Positions 950-20,240 of a stretch of 64,000 nucleotides of DNA are shown in pieces. Numbering within the stretch: the first letter of the stretch is position 1; every line of letters begins with the position of its first letter. Both the position numbers and the translations under genes were made by a program. The notes beneath the pieces were generated by a model. It was not told where the DNA came from. It made no database searches and saw only the letters and a program-made list of their open reading frames with translations. The stretch lies in NCBI RefSeq assembly GCF_030123245.1, contig NZ_CP126101.1:2416501-2480500 (forward strand). Direction: 5' to 3'. Origin of the DNA: Lysinibacillus pakistanensis (lineage in GTDB: Bacteria; Bacillota; Bacilli; Bacillales_A; Planococcaceae).

Positions 950-1113
950 ATAGTCAACCAGCAATGACAATTCAGTTGATTTGTTTGTACTGTGCTAATC
1001 ACAGTCGTTCATCAGCTGATTTTTTTTCAAACATGACATTGCGGCGTTTGTTTTCCTGGAAGGAAACCATTGAGTTTGCACAAAAAGCAGCTAAAAAAGG
1101 GGGCGAAAGTTAG
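596..1113 (+). CDS. Tail assembly chaperone, extended -1 frameshift product (E+E'-like)
   Basis: The -1 frame is open from the T-run to TAG 1111-1113. A shift at heptamer T TTT TTA (928-934) would join 113 codons of the short form to 59 codons of a second frame, giving about 172 residues. The extension ends FSWKETIEFAQKAAKKGGES and has no good start of its own. The stop overlaps the GTG start of the tape measure gene. Conserved -1 frameshifting at exactly this position is established for P2 E/E' and lambda G/GT. The heptamer and open frame are seen directly; frameshift efficiency is inferred. Confidence 0.75.
928..934 (+). promoter_or_regulatory. Programmed -1 ribosomal frameshift site
   Basis: The heptamer T TTT TTA is in the correct zero-frame phase (X XXY YYZ) five codons before the zero-frame stop, and the -1 frame beyond it is open for 59 codons. 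Both tRNAs (Phe on TTT, Leu on TTA) can re-pair one base back. Confidence 0.75.
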
Positions 1114-1961
1114 TGTCTAAAGTATTTGATATTGCTTTCAAATTAGGTGCTGAACTAACGAGTAGCTTTAAAGGAGCATTTAGCGAAGCAAGTAGTTCCA
1201 TGAAGTTCTTAACTGGAGCAGCTGCTGCAGTAGGAGGTATAGGTGCTTTTACAGCGGTAGTTGGCCAAATGTCTGAGATGTCTGATTCATTATCAAAATT
1301 ATCGGCGCAAACAGGCACATTTGGGGCTGATATGGAAGCCTTAGAGGGCGTAGCTAAAAATGTTTTTCGTAGTGGATATGGCGAATCATTTGATGAAGTA
1401 ACAGAAGCCCTTGCAAATGTAAAACAAAATATGCACAACTTGGACAATGGCGAATTAGAACGCATGACAGGTGATGCATTGATGTTTGCAGATACATTTG
1501 ATGCAGACATCAACGAGGTAACCCGAGCAGCTAATAATATGATGAGTAGCTTTGGTGTTACCTCTACAACAGCAATGGACCTTTTTGCAGCAGGCGCGCA
1601 AAGAGGTCTTAATTTTTCTGATGAAATGCTCGATAATGTGGCCGAATATGCACCGTTGTTCGGAGAAATGGGTTATTCAGCAGAAGAATATTTCGGCATT
1701 CTTGAACGTGGAGCAAAAGCAGGCGTATACAACTTAGATTACGTGAATGATGTCATGAAAGAGTTCCAAATACGCTCAAAAGATGGCTCTAAAGCAACAA
1801 AAGATGCAATGGGTGATCTCTCAAAGGAAACACAAAATGTATGGAAAGAATTTTTAAAAGGAAATGGCACTGTTGCGGATGTAGCAAGTACTGTAGTGGC
1901 TGAATTACAAGGTATGGATGACCAAGTAGCTGCCAATCAAATTGGTGTAGGGTTATTCGGT
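1113..1961 (+). CDS. Phage tail tape measure protein, exon 1
   Basis: GTG start directly overlapping the E' stop, with AAAGGGGGCGAAAG as ribosome site. Exon 1 gives 283 residues: an N-terminal alpha-helical segment with Ala/Ser-rich membrane-like stretch (about residues 25-50), then the conserved TP901-type tape measure core (SAQTG..., ATRAANNMMSSFGV, DLFAAGAQRGLNFSDEM). It ends ...GVGLFG. Read without splicing the frame would stop two codons later at TGA 1965. The next conserved residues, TKWEDLE, begin at 2212, so the gene is interrupted, not ended. Confidence 0.85.
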
Positions 1962-2211
1962 AGATGATAAATTGTGCCGAATTAAAATCGTTCAAAATCG
2001 GTGAAGGCTAAGTTTAATGAAATATGCTAATACCGAGGTAAAGCATGACTTAAAAATCATGGCTCACCGTAGAGCATAGAGGTTGAAACTCATCATTTGA
2101 GAATAAAATACCTCCACGAGTGAACGACACTATTATTAGTGAAAATGTATGCCGAACTCACTGGAAACGGTGAGAGGTAGGGGATAAAAAGCCTTTACGA
2201 TAACAAAATTG
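1962..2211 (+). ncRNA. Candidate self-splicing group I intron (250 nt, no ORF)
   Basis: Removing 1962-2211 joins ...LFG to TKWEDLE in frame. The last exon base is T and the last intron base is G, as group I splicing requires. An internal guide GCCGAAT (1976-1982) pairs with exon ATTCGGT (1955-1961) with a G.U at the splice site (P1), and TTGT just before the guide (1972-1975) pairs with ACAA at the start of exon 2 (2212-2215; P10). Possible core helices: CTAATA 2027-2032 with TATTAG 2134-2139 (P3), GAGGT/ACCTC around 2080-2114 (P6), and a GAAA-capped hairpin at 2157-2174. P7 was not resolved by eye. Confidence 0.82.
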
Positions 2212-4605
2212 ACAAAATGGGAAGATTTAGAAGCCACCGCCATGTATGCCATGCTCGGATCAACAGAAGCCATGGAAGGCTTTGAGGGAGCTATGGCAAA
2301 AGTAAATGAAGTTCGTTTTGATACATTCGGAAAAGCTATTCAAGGAATTGGCCGAATTCTATTTATGGATCTTGTTTATCCCATTGGAGATGCTGTTTTA
2401 CCAGTATTAAATTTATTTGCTAACTATTTATCCAACAATTTACCTGGTGCAATTAAAAAAGCAAAATCAATCCTAAGTACGATAGCTCCTATATTGATAG
2501 GGATGGTATCGGCTTTTTTAATTTACAAAGGCACATTAGTGGCCGTTGCAGTGGCACAAAGTATTTTTAATACTGTTCAAAAAACTAGTATTGCTCTCTA
2601 TAATGCTCATCGAGCAGCCATGATAGCCTATTCCCTATACGGTGGTGGGGTTAAAGGCATTACTCAAGGTATGGCAGCAGCTATGCGTGTTTTAAATATT
2701 ACAATGTTGGCCAATCCATTTGTAGCTGTGGTAGCTGCAGTTATTGGCATAGGTGTGGCTTTTTATGCAGCTTATAAAATGTCTGATAAGTTCCGTGGAG
2801 CTGTAAACAATCTGTTTAGTGCATTAAAGGATTTTATGAGCAATTCAATTAGCTATGTAGCATTAAATGCGCCTCTCATCTGGAACAATTTATTACTTAG
2901 TTTAAAAATAATGAAGATACGATTGATTATAAATATGCAAAATATGGCAAGACAAGCCATGGAAGCCTTTGGAAATAGTCTTTCAGGAAAAGTAGGAACT
3001 GTGATAAGTGGCTTTATTGCTAGTTTTAAAACAGGACTTTCTAGTTTACCAGGTATCATTTCACTTATTGCGCCAATGATGACCACAATGGCACTTGGAT
3101 TCTTAGGTGTAAGTGGACCTATTGGTTGGTTAATTGGAGCAATAGTAAGTATAGGAGGATTTTTATTCAGATTATCCCAAACGAATGATAAAGTAGCTGG
3201 AGCTTTAAAAGGAGCATGGGAAAGTCTTTCATCTGCATTTGCACCAATTATCCAAGTATTTAGTGATGGTTTTAGTCAATTTGCTACTGAAGTAGGGCCA
3301 CAATTAAGTGACACTATATCAATGATCGCTACAAGTATTACAGAAATGGGACCAATGTTTGCAGAGGTTGGGAGCTCCTTGGCTCAATTAGCTGTAACAA
3401 TGCTTTCCTTATGGTCAGGTTCTATTTCAACCTTAGCAACAACATTGTTACCAATACTACTCCAGGTATTCAAAATGGTTTTTCCGATGATCTTACAAGT
3501 GATTCAAATGGTTTTACCATTGGTAATAAATTTATTGGCTAGTATCATTCCAGTCATTTTGCAGTTAGCACAGTTGATTATTCCGATGATTTTACAAGTA
3601 ATACAGTCGGTATTTCCAATTATTTTAAGTATCATTCAAATGGTTTTACCGATATTTGCTACGCTTTTAACAACAGTTATTGGGGTTATTCTACAGTTAG
3701 CGCAAACGGTTCTTCCAATGGTGCTTAGTGTAATACAGATGGTATTTCCAATTGCGCTTGCAATTATTCAAGCCATCATCCCGATTATTGTTTCTGTTTT
3801 GGAAATTTTAATAAATATTGTTAATACCGTTCTTATTCCAGCGATAAATGGCATTTTGGCAGTCATTGAGTTTGTATTCCCATATGTACAGTCAATTATA
3901 GAAACAGCCCTAACAATAATTAATGGCATCATCCAAACGGCAATGTCTCTTTTACAAGGTGATTGGGATGGAGCCTGGAATACAATACTTTCAACTGCTG
4001 AAACAATCATGAACAATATCATTAGTTTTTTCCAAGGAATTAACTTATTTGACGTAGGAAAGGCCATTATTACAGGATTAATAGATGGTATTAAATCAAT
4101 GGGCGGAGCTGTTTTAGGAGCAATTGGTAACTTAGTACCCGAGCCCTTAAAAGGAGCTGCTAGTAAGCTCTTAAAGAATCTACCTGGCTTTGCTGAAGGT
4201 GGTATTGTAGGCAATCCAACATTAGCATGGATTGGTGAGGGTGGCGATACAGAGGCTGTTATCCCTTGGAATAATTCACAGCGTTCTAAAGACTTATGGT
4301 TACAAACAGGACAAGCATTAGGCATGCTACGCGATAATGGTGTATTTGATAATATGCAAGATCAAATATCTATGCAGATGCAAGCGAATGACAGCCCTGC
4401 TATCAGCCCTAATCAAGTGGCACAATCTGTACCAAACCAAAATAATTCGCAGGTGATTCAGCTAACTTATAACCCACAATACAACGTACAAAGACCAGAG
4501 GACTTAGACCAGGTAAAACAACATGCTGATCAAGATAAAGATGACTTAGAAGCACGGCTAGCTGAAATTGCACATAACGAAAGGAGGAAGTCGTTTGGCG
4601 ACTAA
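2212..4605 (+). CDS. Phage tail tape measure protein, exon 2
   Basis: 797 residues; with exon 1 the spliced protein is about 1,080 residues. It opens TKWEDLEATAMYAML, the conserved continuation of the tape measure domain, passes several hydrophobic segments, then a remarkable run (nt about 3430-3830) of short repeats of the type PMILQVIQMV(F/L)P, and ends with a GGIVGNPTLAWIGEGG motif typical of tape measure C-termini. The protein sets tail length and is ejected with DNA. A TTG at 2209 keeps the frame open into the intron but has no ribosome site, so independent translation is unlikely. Confidence 0.88.
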   Translation, partial: TKWEDLEATAMYAMLGSTEAMEGFEGAMAKVNEVRFDTFGKAIQGIGRILFMDLVYPIGDAVLPVLNLFANYLSNNLPGAIKKAKSILSTIAPILIGMVSAFLIYKGTLVAVAVAQSIFNTVQKTSIALYNAHRAAMIAYSLYGGGVKGITQGMAAAMRVLNITMLANPFVAVVAAVIGIGVAFYAAYKMSDKFRGAVNNLFSALKDFMSNSISYVALNAPLIWNNLLLSLKIMKIRLIINMQNMARQAMEAFGNSLSGKVGTVISGFIASFKTGLSSLPGIISLIAPMMTTMALGFLGVSGPIGWLIGAIVSIGGFLFRLSQTNDKVAGALKGAWESLSSAFAPIIQVFSDGFSQFATEVGPQLSDTISMIATSITEMGPMFAEVGSSLAQLAVTMLSLWSGSISTLATTLLPILLQVFKMVFPMILQVIQMVLPLVINLLASIIPVILQLAQLIIPMILQVIQSVFPIILSIIQMVLPIFATLLTTVIGVILQLAQTVLPMVLSVIQMVFPIALAIIQAIIPIIVSVLEILINIVNTVLIPAINGILAVIEFVFPYVQSIIETALTIINGIIQTAMSLLQGDWDGAWNTILSTAETIMNNIISFFQGINLFDVGKAIITGLIDGIKSMGGAVLGAIGNLVPEPLKGAASKLLKNLPGFAEGGIVGNPTLAWIGEGGDTEAVIPWNNSQRSKDLWLQTGQALGMLRDNGVFDNMQDQISMQMQANDSPAISPNQVAQSVPNQNNSQVIQLTYNPQYNVQRPEDLDQVKQHADQDKDDLEARLAEIAHNERRKSFGD

Positions 4606-14609: not shown

Positions 14610-14859
14610 CTGGAAAGTTCGTTTACAACACAAACAATTTTGGGTGTCATTAATTGCATTATTACTAGTGCTCGCTAATCAAATAGCGGGCATTTTTAAT
14701 GTCGATATTACGATTTACAATGCTCAAATTACAGCCATTTCAGAGACTTTATTAAGCATTTTAGGCTTACTGGGCATTATTATCGACCCAACCACAAAAG
14801 GTGCTTCAGACAGTGAACAAGCCATGAATTATGACAAACCAAAAGGTGATGTAAAATGA
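14599..14859 (+). CDS. Phage holin (phi LC3 family)
   Basis: 86 residues starting MKVNWKVRLQHKQFW with two membrane segments (about 15-32 and 50-66), the motif GIIIDPTTKGASDSEQAM and a charged tail (YDKPKGDVK). This is the phi-LC3-type holin that forms membrane lesions to release or activate the endolysin. ATG 14599 is preceded by GGAGGG. The stop overlaps the endolysin start. Confidence 0.92.
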   Translation: MKVNWKVRLQHKQFWVSLIALLLVLANQIAGIFNVDITIYNAQITAISETLLSILGLLGIIIDPTTKGASDSEQAMNYDKPKGDVK

Positions 14860-20018: not shown

Positions 20019-20240
20019 CGTGCTATTTTAGGTAGCATATTTCCGTAATCTGGCATTCTGCTTTTTGTTTTTGAGGATACTTATTCACACTGGCGCATGC
20101 TTTGGGGCTGCAAGGACGCAAAAGAAGGTTGGGTTTGCGTTGCTTAAGTTAGAAGGCACACAGTGGAATTTTACCGCGGTGATGAAACAATCATGTTTCA
20201 AGATAATATTCCCCAGATGATTGGGTTGAGACTTTTTACA
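20019..20240 (+). ncRNA. Candidate structured small RNA (possibly 6S-like)
   Basis: No ORF fits this stretch, but there is a strong promoter upstream and several long-range pairings: ATCTGG (about 20048) with CCAGAT (about 20213), CACTG (20088-) with CAGTG (about 20162), and ACGCAAA/TTTGCGT at about 20114-20139. The rod-like layout and size of about 200 nt recall 6S RNA, but I cannot confirm the family. It begins CCGTGCTA like SRP RNA, yet lacks the SRP Alu and S-domain motifs. Confidence 0.4.

Follow-up and report, generated by a model that had tools for sequence, protein, structure and literature searches.

A putative self-splicing group I intron at a conserved codon pair of the tape measure gene in a Lysinibacillus prophage and its relatives at the same junction

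Results

An insert of 250 nucleotides interrupts the tape measure gene

We analysed a 64,000-nt stretch of Lysinibacillus pakistanensis DNA (contig NZ_CP126101.1, positions 2,416,501 to 2,480,500; hereafter the window), in which the tape measure protein (TMP) gene of a prophage is interrupted, on direct reading, by a 250-nt insert at 1962-2211. The TMP gene is preceded by genes for a tail tube protein (Pfam Phage_tube) and a tail assembly chaperone and followed by a baseplate J gene and, at 14856, an endolysin gene. The TMP frame opens with GTG at 1113, reads ...GVGLFG and then meets AGA TGA inside the insert, the in-frame TGA standing two codons past GGT 1959-1961. It picks up again as TKWEDLE... 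at ACA 2212 and remains open until the stop codon at 4603-4605. As had been predicted, splicing after T1961 and G2211 restores the frame, and does so exactly to the base (the 250 nt removed leave a remainder of one on division by three). The joined exons, with GGU followed by ACA, would encode a TMP of 1080 residues.

Exon 1 (1113-1961, plus strand, 283 codons) and exon 2 (2212-4605, plus strand, 797 codons and a stop) are both in the list of open reading frames, and both match PHROG tape measure families. Exon 1 also matches PF10145 (E = 6e-24, profile positions 7-201 of 201), ending at the last position of that profile, and in the unnamed family phrog_5218 exon 1 stops at profile position 498 and exon 2 restarts at 502. 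The insert between them (plus strand, last base G2211) contains no ORF of 60 codons or more in the same list, so the element carries no endonuclease gene. Elsewhere in the window, at 20065-20153 on the minus strand, there is a match to the BsrC small RNA (57.1 bits, cut-off 38).

The site is empty in most homologous genes

The original prediction took the step from LFG to TKW to be the normal continuation of this family and placed the insertion at a conserved codon pair. Both points were borne out. Aligning 12 uninterrupted TMPs showed the junction residues, G276 and T277, to be invariant. Searches with this alignment gave 114 homologous loci, 34 from genomes and the best 80 of 177 from viruses, and 103 of them are uninterrupted exactly at this junction. 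Because some prophages are present in both collections (e.g. L190 and L240), the counts refer to loci and should not be read as numbers of independent phages. All 103 have G before the junction; T follows it in 102 and S in one. Two loci carry inserts at the junction, of 238 nt in L212 (Niallia nealsonii) and 250 nt in L234. A match to exon 2 is absent in eight more: L284, which has an intron at the TMP junction and whose sequence ends inside it, the distant homologues L218-L223, and L236, which is cut by a contig end. L235 was considered as an intron-bearing locus and rejected, as it has a deletion and not an intron.

The insert folds as a group I core

The pairings drawn for the window intron (all coordinates are on the plus strand) comprise the P3-P7 pseudoknot, P4-P6 and P8 of a group I core, and every named pair is standard. 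The two interactions with the exons were confirmed pair by pair as originally proposed. In P1, the exon strand AUUCGGU (1955-1961) pairs with the guide GCCGAAU (1976-1982), with a U.G wobble at the 5' splice site; in P10, UUGU (1972-1975) pairs with ACAA of exon 2 (2212-2215). The core had been predicted less accurately: the GAAA tetraloop hairpin at 2157-2174 is correct and corresponds to P9, while the P3 placed at 2027-2032 and 2134-2139 has to be replaced by UCGUUCA (1988-1994) pairing with UGAACGA (2121-2127).

We counted paired cells in an alignment of 46 introns. A profile built from 10 introns gave 194 matches in 160 loci; 64 candidates had both ends, 45 were left after removal of near-copies, and the window intron was added. 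P3 is paired in 96.9% of cells, with two-sided changes in all seven of its pairs. P7 (GCAUA, 2074-2078, with UAUGC, 2148-2152), which crosses P3, is paired in 100% of cells; four of its pairs are invariant and the fifth is A-U in 36 introns and G-C in 10. P4 (1998-2002 with 2032-2036; 71.3%) encloses P5, which comes from the local fold only and was outside the covariation count. It is followed by P6 (2037-2039 with 2066-2068; 87.0%) and the variable and gappy P6a (2044-2048 with 2057-2061; 45.2%). In P8 (2128-2141) the outer four pairs are paired in 95.6% of cells and the fifth in 28.6%. P9 has 90.2-100% in its three counted parts, and P9.1 (2177-2198), a hairpin with an invariant GGAUAAAAAGCC element (GGGAUAAAAAGCC in the window), has 97.8%. 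P1 and P10 reach 51.7% and 46.7% over all 46 introns, a count in which the 5' ends at other sites are estimates. P7.1 (2079-2083 with 2110-2114; 99.6%) and P7.2 (2089-2092 with 2098-2101; 78.0%) complete the structure. In group I introns, P7.1 and P7.2 between the 5' strand of P7 and the 3' strand of P3 mark subgroup IA, and because both elements are present here the intron is probably of IA type.

Taken as a whole, the P1-P10 model is paired in 82.2% of cells as against 64.2% in shuffled alignments, and 56 of its 64 pairs show two-sided changes; none of 500 shuffles scored as high on any of five measures. Sliding the structures by 1-3 columns reduced pairing to 34-42% of cells, although we drew the counted structure by eye on the window intron, which somewhat favours it over the slid versions. 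The stretch 1950-2225 has a folding z-score of -3.70, and none of 200 shuffled sequences was as stable.

A covariance search had been proposed as a check on the original prediction. A scan of 301 nt with the Rfam group I model (RF00028) gave a match at 1952-2174 with 37.6 bits (E = 2.5e-8), which is under the 50-bit cut-off. The intron was not listed in a 6-kb scan by E-value, in a scan of the whole window at the gathering threshold or in a search of its own genome, i.e. Rfam picks it up solely when a short stretch is scanned. The divergent same-site intron in L212 gave no RF00028 match at E values up to 1. The general Rfam model thus under-scores or misses both members of the lineage scanned at the TMP site, the window intron and that of L212. 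The central prediction, an ORF-less group I intron in a TMP gene, is upheld by the RF00028 match (under the cut-off), the covariation, the empty sites and the relatives at the same site described below.

A separate observation concerns the region G000:C1:3313297-3315562 (minus strand; L002, L006, L007), where a putative ribonucleotide reductase gene of the chromosome contains candidate group I introns. Two match RF00028 with 39.6 and 25.5 bits, both below the cut-off, and one of the introns in this gene has a 303-aa ORF with LAGLIDADG-like motifs (read by eye). A third stretch resembles the 3' end of the window intron and has no Rfam match; its downstream exon recurs beside the same intron end in other genomes of the family.

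Relatives occupy the same junction in other phages

The original prediction also proposed looking for further insertions at the LFG/TKW codons, and this search was productive. When viral contigs were scanned with a pattern for the 3' element of the intron, at least 120 stretches were found, and among the matches listed the intron profile reaches its 3' end in 119 of 120 and the downstream exon has the same TMP motif in 29, on 29 different contigs; for 26 of these 29 the upstream exon was also found. Since the search pattern was derived from the window intron, the TMP share is biased. After removal of 12 of the 119 downstream exon proteins that were shorter than 40 aa, we scanned the remaining 107: 37 match phrog_1272 and 37 match phrog_28, both TMP families (the two counts do not form a union). 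Beyond the pattern-matched stretches, introns at the TMP junction are present in L234, L212, L284 and Caldibacillus phage CBP1, giving 33 relatives (29 plus 4), although CBP1 may also be among the viral contigs. Five pairs of near-copies (>98.5% identical) occur among the same-site introns. A pattern of the 26 bases spanning the 5' splice site, allowing up to three mismatches, was searched in 398 genomes of the class and found in the window's own genome only, a result that counts against wide spread.

Both ends are available for 29 same-site introns (the window, L234, L212 and 26 others). All 29 have U at position -1, a best P1 run of six or seven pairs and, near the end of the profile, a G preceding ACA; all also have an in-frame stop with 100 open codons downstream. 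In the Niallia intron (L212) the exon reads TTACGGT and the guide GCCGTAG, a two-sided change of exon and guide. Among the 29 introns whose length was measured, 24 fall at 225-299 nt; the other five, at 1145-1212 nt, each have an ORF of 259-260 codons. HNH-type ORFs are found in six same-site introns (L079, L117, L155, L174, L088 and L284): those of L079 and L155 have an HNH match in Pfam, those of L079, L155 and L284 match the HNH family phrog_1271, and those of L117, L174 and L088 are similar to HNH-type ORFs by eye. The cut ORF of L284 has no Pfam match.

Some of these genes are interrupted more than once. A second interruption with a P7-like motif lies 84-86 codons upstream in seven of the 29 same-site loci; the upstream DNA of L107, L120 and L081 is too short to judge. 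The one second interruption scored with RF00028, in L076 (3087-3314, minus strand, near GTWN|ID), gave 95.2 bits, above the cut-off. A different group I intron interrupts the same TMP family at YNLD|YVNDV in L245 (5622-5851; 27 bits, E = 3.6e-5, below the cut-off). An upstream frame break in L167 was set aside as not intron-like in appearance. Phages phiCDKH02, IMEP5 and LIS04 share the 3' end of the intron outside the TMP gene and were likewise excluded. In the last of these, Listeria phage LIS04 (L309), a terminase gene has as neighbours an endonuclease gene, annotated intein pieces and a similar intron end.

The intron differs in history from the gene around it

The window and L234 introns differ at two of 250 bases, 2098 in P7.2 and 2181 in P9.1. 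Their exons are far apart: dS is 0.98 for exon 1 and 1.86 for exon 2 (537 aligned codons; near saturation). No intron is present in L231-L233, the closest TMPs among the loci compared (91-95% identity in exon 1). Because it is nearly identical to that of L234 despite the exon dS, and the closest TMPs lack it, the intron is mobile and has moved recently, by lateral transfer, between diverged TMP genes.

To describe the flanks we used as diagnostic those sites at which L231-L233 agree and differ from L234 in an ungapped comparison. The window has the intron-less type at 15 of 16 diagnostic sites 51-300 nt upstream. Downstream, where the first diagnostic site lies at 45 nt, it has this type at 75 of the 77 sites within 1-300 nt. 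Over both flanks it has the L234 type at none and neither type at three. No co-conversion tract was seen, with no diagnostic sites within 50 nt upstream and one, of the intron-less type, within 50 nt downstream. This pattern implies that the transferred stretch was the intron with at most about 50 nt of upstream and 44 nt of downstream exon. A three-way comparison with L232 alone had indicated L234-like exon near the intron; this was dropped, as most of those bases are shared by the intron-less L231. In the comparison with L232 only, the window also matches L234 at some more distant sites.

In a tree of 46 intron cores, ten of them from the TMP junction, four changes of site label are required, at least three of which are forced by well supported branches, and a single clade for the ten same-site introns is rejected (AU test, p = 3.3e-5; the bootstrap was not fully settled). 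The window and L094 introns fall in different clades, with 115 of 189 aligned core columns identical; their first 29 bases are all identical. We infer that cores may have been swapped under a fixed guide. The guide and the P10 strand are constrained because the exon is shared; the constraint is weaker on the remainder of the P1 loop.

Discussion

Proposed mechanism and alternative readings

Our interpretation, which we hold with high confidence, is that the insert is a self-splicing ORF-less group I intron, a mobile parasite of the Gly|Thr codon pair of the TMP gene. In the pre-mRNA the guide GCCGAAU would pair with the end of exon 1 to form P1, and a guanosine held by P7 would attack after U1961. 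The freed exon 1 would then attack after G2211, aligned by P10, and GGU would be joined to ACA. Splicing in the cell, catalysis, and the route and direction of transfer are all inferred from the DNA sequence.

The insert could be a dead remnant that has lost splicing, leaving a truncated TMP and a tailless prophage. The intron does sit in a chromosome-resident prophage, with splicing predicted from its sequence, and it differs from that of L234 within two helices. These differences, however, leave the window with the standard pairs A-U at 2098 (A-C in L234) and G-U at 2181 (A-U in L234), and all its other named pairs are standard too. Moreover, both exons are open and have dN well below dS in the pair formed by the window and L234, although dN/dS in such TMP pairs mostly reflects the long past of both lineages. 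We therefore regard decay as improbable. Still less credible is that the insert stays unspliced and the two TMP parts are separate proteins. Exon 1 does end where PF10145 ends, and the records of phiJH1301-1, CBP1 and 6ec give the TMP parts as separate CDS. On sequence reading, however, the 20 bases preceding TTG 2209 contain no purine-rich stretch resembling a ribosome-binding site, covariation in the insert follows a group I core, and an uninterrupted TMP is the rule among the homologous loci.

For the self-splicing intron that we favour, spread would most simply be explained by endonuclease-driven homing from an HNH-bearing relative. Reverse splicing of the RNA is an alternative route that we consider unlikely, though less so than either reading above. 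It would fit the lack of visible co-conversion of the flanking exons (less than 51 nt upstream and less than 45 nt downstream transferred) and the result that no homologue of the L284 ORF fragment, i.e. no related endonuclease, was found in the window's genome, in a search run without a positive control. The HNH-type ORFs in six introns at the same site argue against it.

Relation to known introns

The suggestion that no TMP intron had been described does not hold. According to Barth et al. 2023 (PMC10448857), the TMP transcript of phage ICP1 consists of four exons and three introns, as determined by RNA-seq and RT-PCR, and the TMP gene is called frequently interrupted; a 2021 review (PMC9040626) had already supposed as much for ICP1. 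The window intron is therefore a further case, spliced TMP introns being known from ICP1. ICP1 resembles our system in that its TMP gene carries introns, and HNH genes are present in some alleles whereas other alleles have an empty intron (PMC10448857); it differs in being a Vibrio phage with three introns per gene. Other phage tail genes with introns have been described as well (PMC3706429).

The introns of Twort and the Bastillevirinae are similar in that they too come from phages, have mostly been linked to the IA subgroups and occur with or without endonuclease genes, but they are described in nucleotide reductase, polymerase and terminase genes, and orf142 of Twort is named as a tail tube gene (PMC11878797). 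By blastn, related TMP introns occur in Streptococcus phages phiJH1301-1, MissB1 and Javan355, Staphylococcus phages DH5 and 6ec, and Arcanobacterium phage TPWB06; the intron profile, applied to all of these but 6ec, matches each of the five. They differ from the window intron in lying at other TMP positions, ..EAI|EDLG.. and ..LG|NNMA.. (exon ends read by eye), and in Javan355 and 6ec an endonuclease gene lies between the TMP parts. We recognised no description of an intron at the Gly|Thr junction in the literature searched, a set with most subscription papers outside it.

Significance

Relatives inserted at the identical position in other phages indicate that mobile group I introns have repeatedly targeted the TMP gene, whose product determines tail length, in Firmicutes phages. 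We lean, with modest confidence, towards the view that the Gly|Thr junction is a convergent hotspot for at least three group I lineages, two of which would combine an identical P1 loop and guide with different cores, and that TMP genes of Firmicutes phages are a major and largely unannotated intron target. Public records split such genes into false protein pairs: the two TMP parts are entered as separate proteins in the phage records L305 (CBP1), L005, L053, L055 and L306. If true, the TMP hotspot runs against the preference of phage group I introns for nucleotide and DNA metabolism genes that is reported in PMC11878797 and PMC12350094. The occupied, empty and endonuclease-bearing alleles of this one site also provide a ready system for studying how introns colonise a structural gene.
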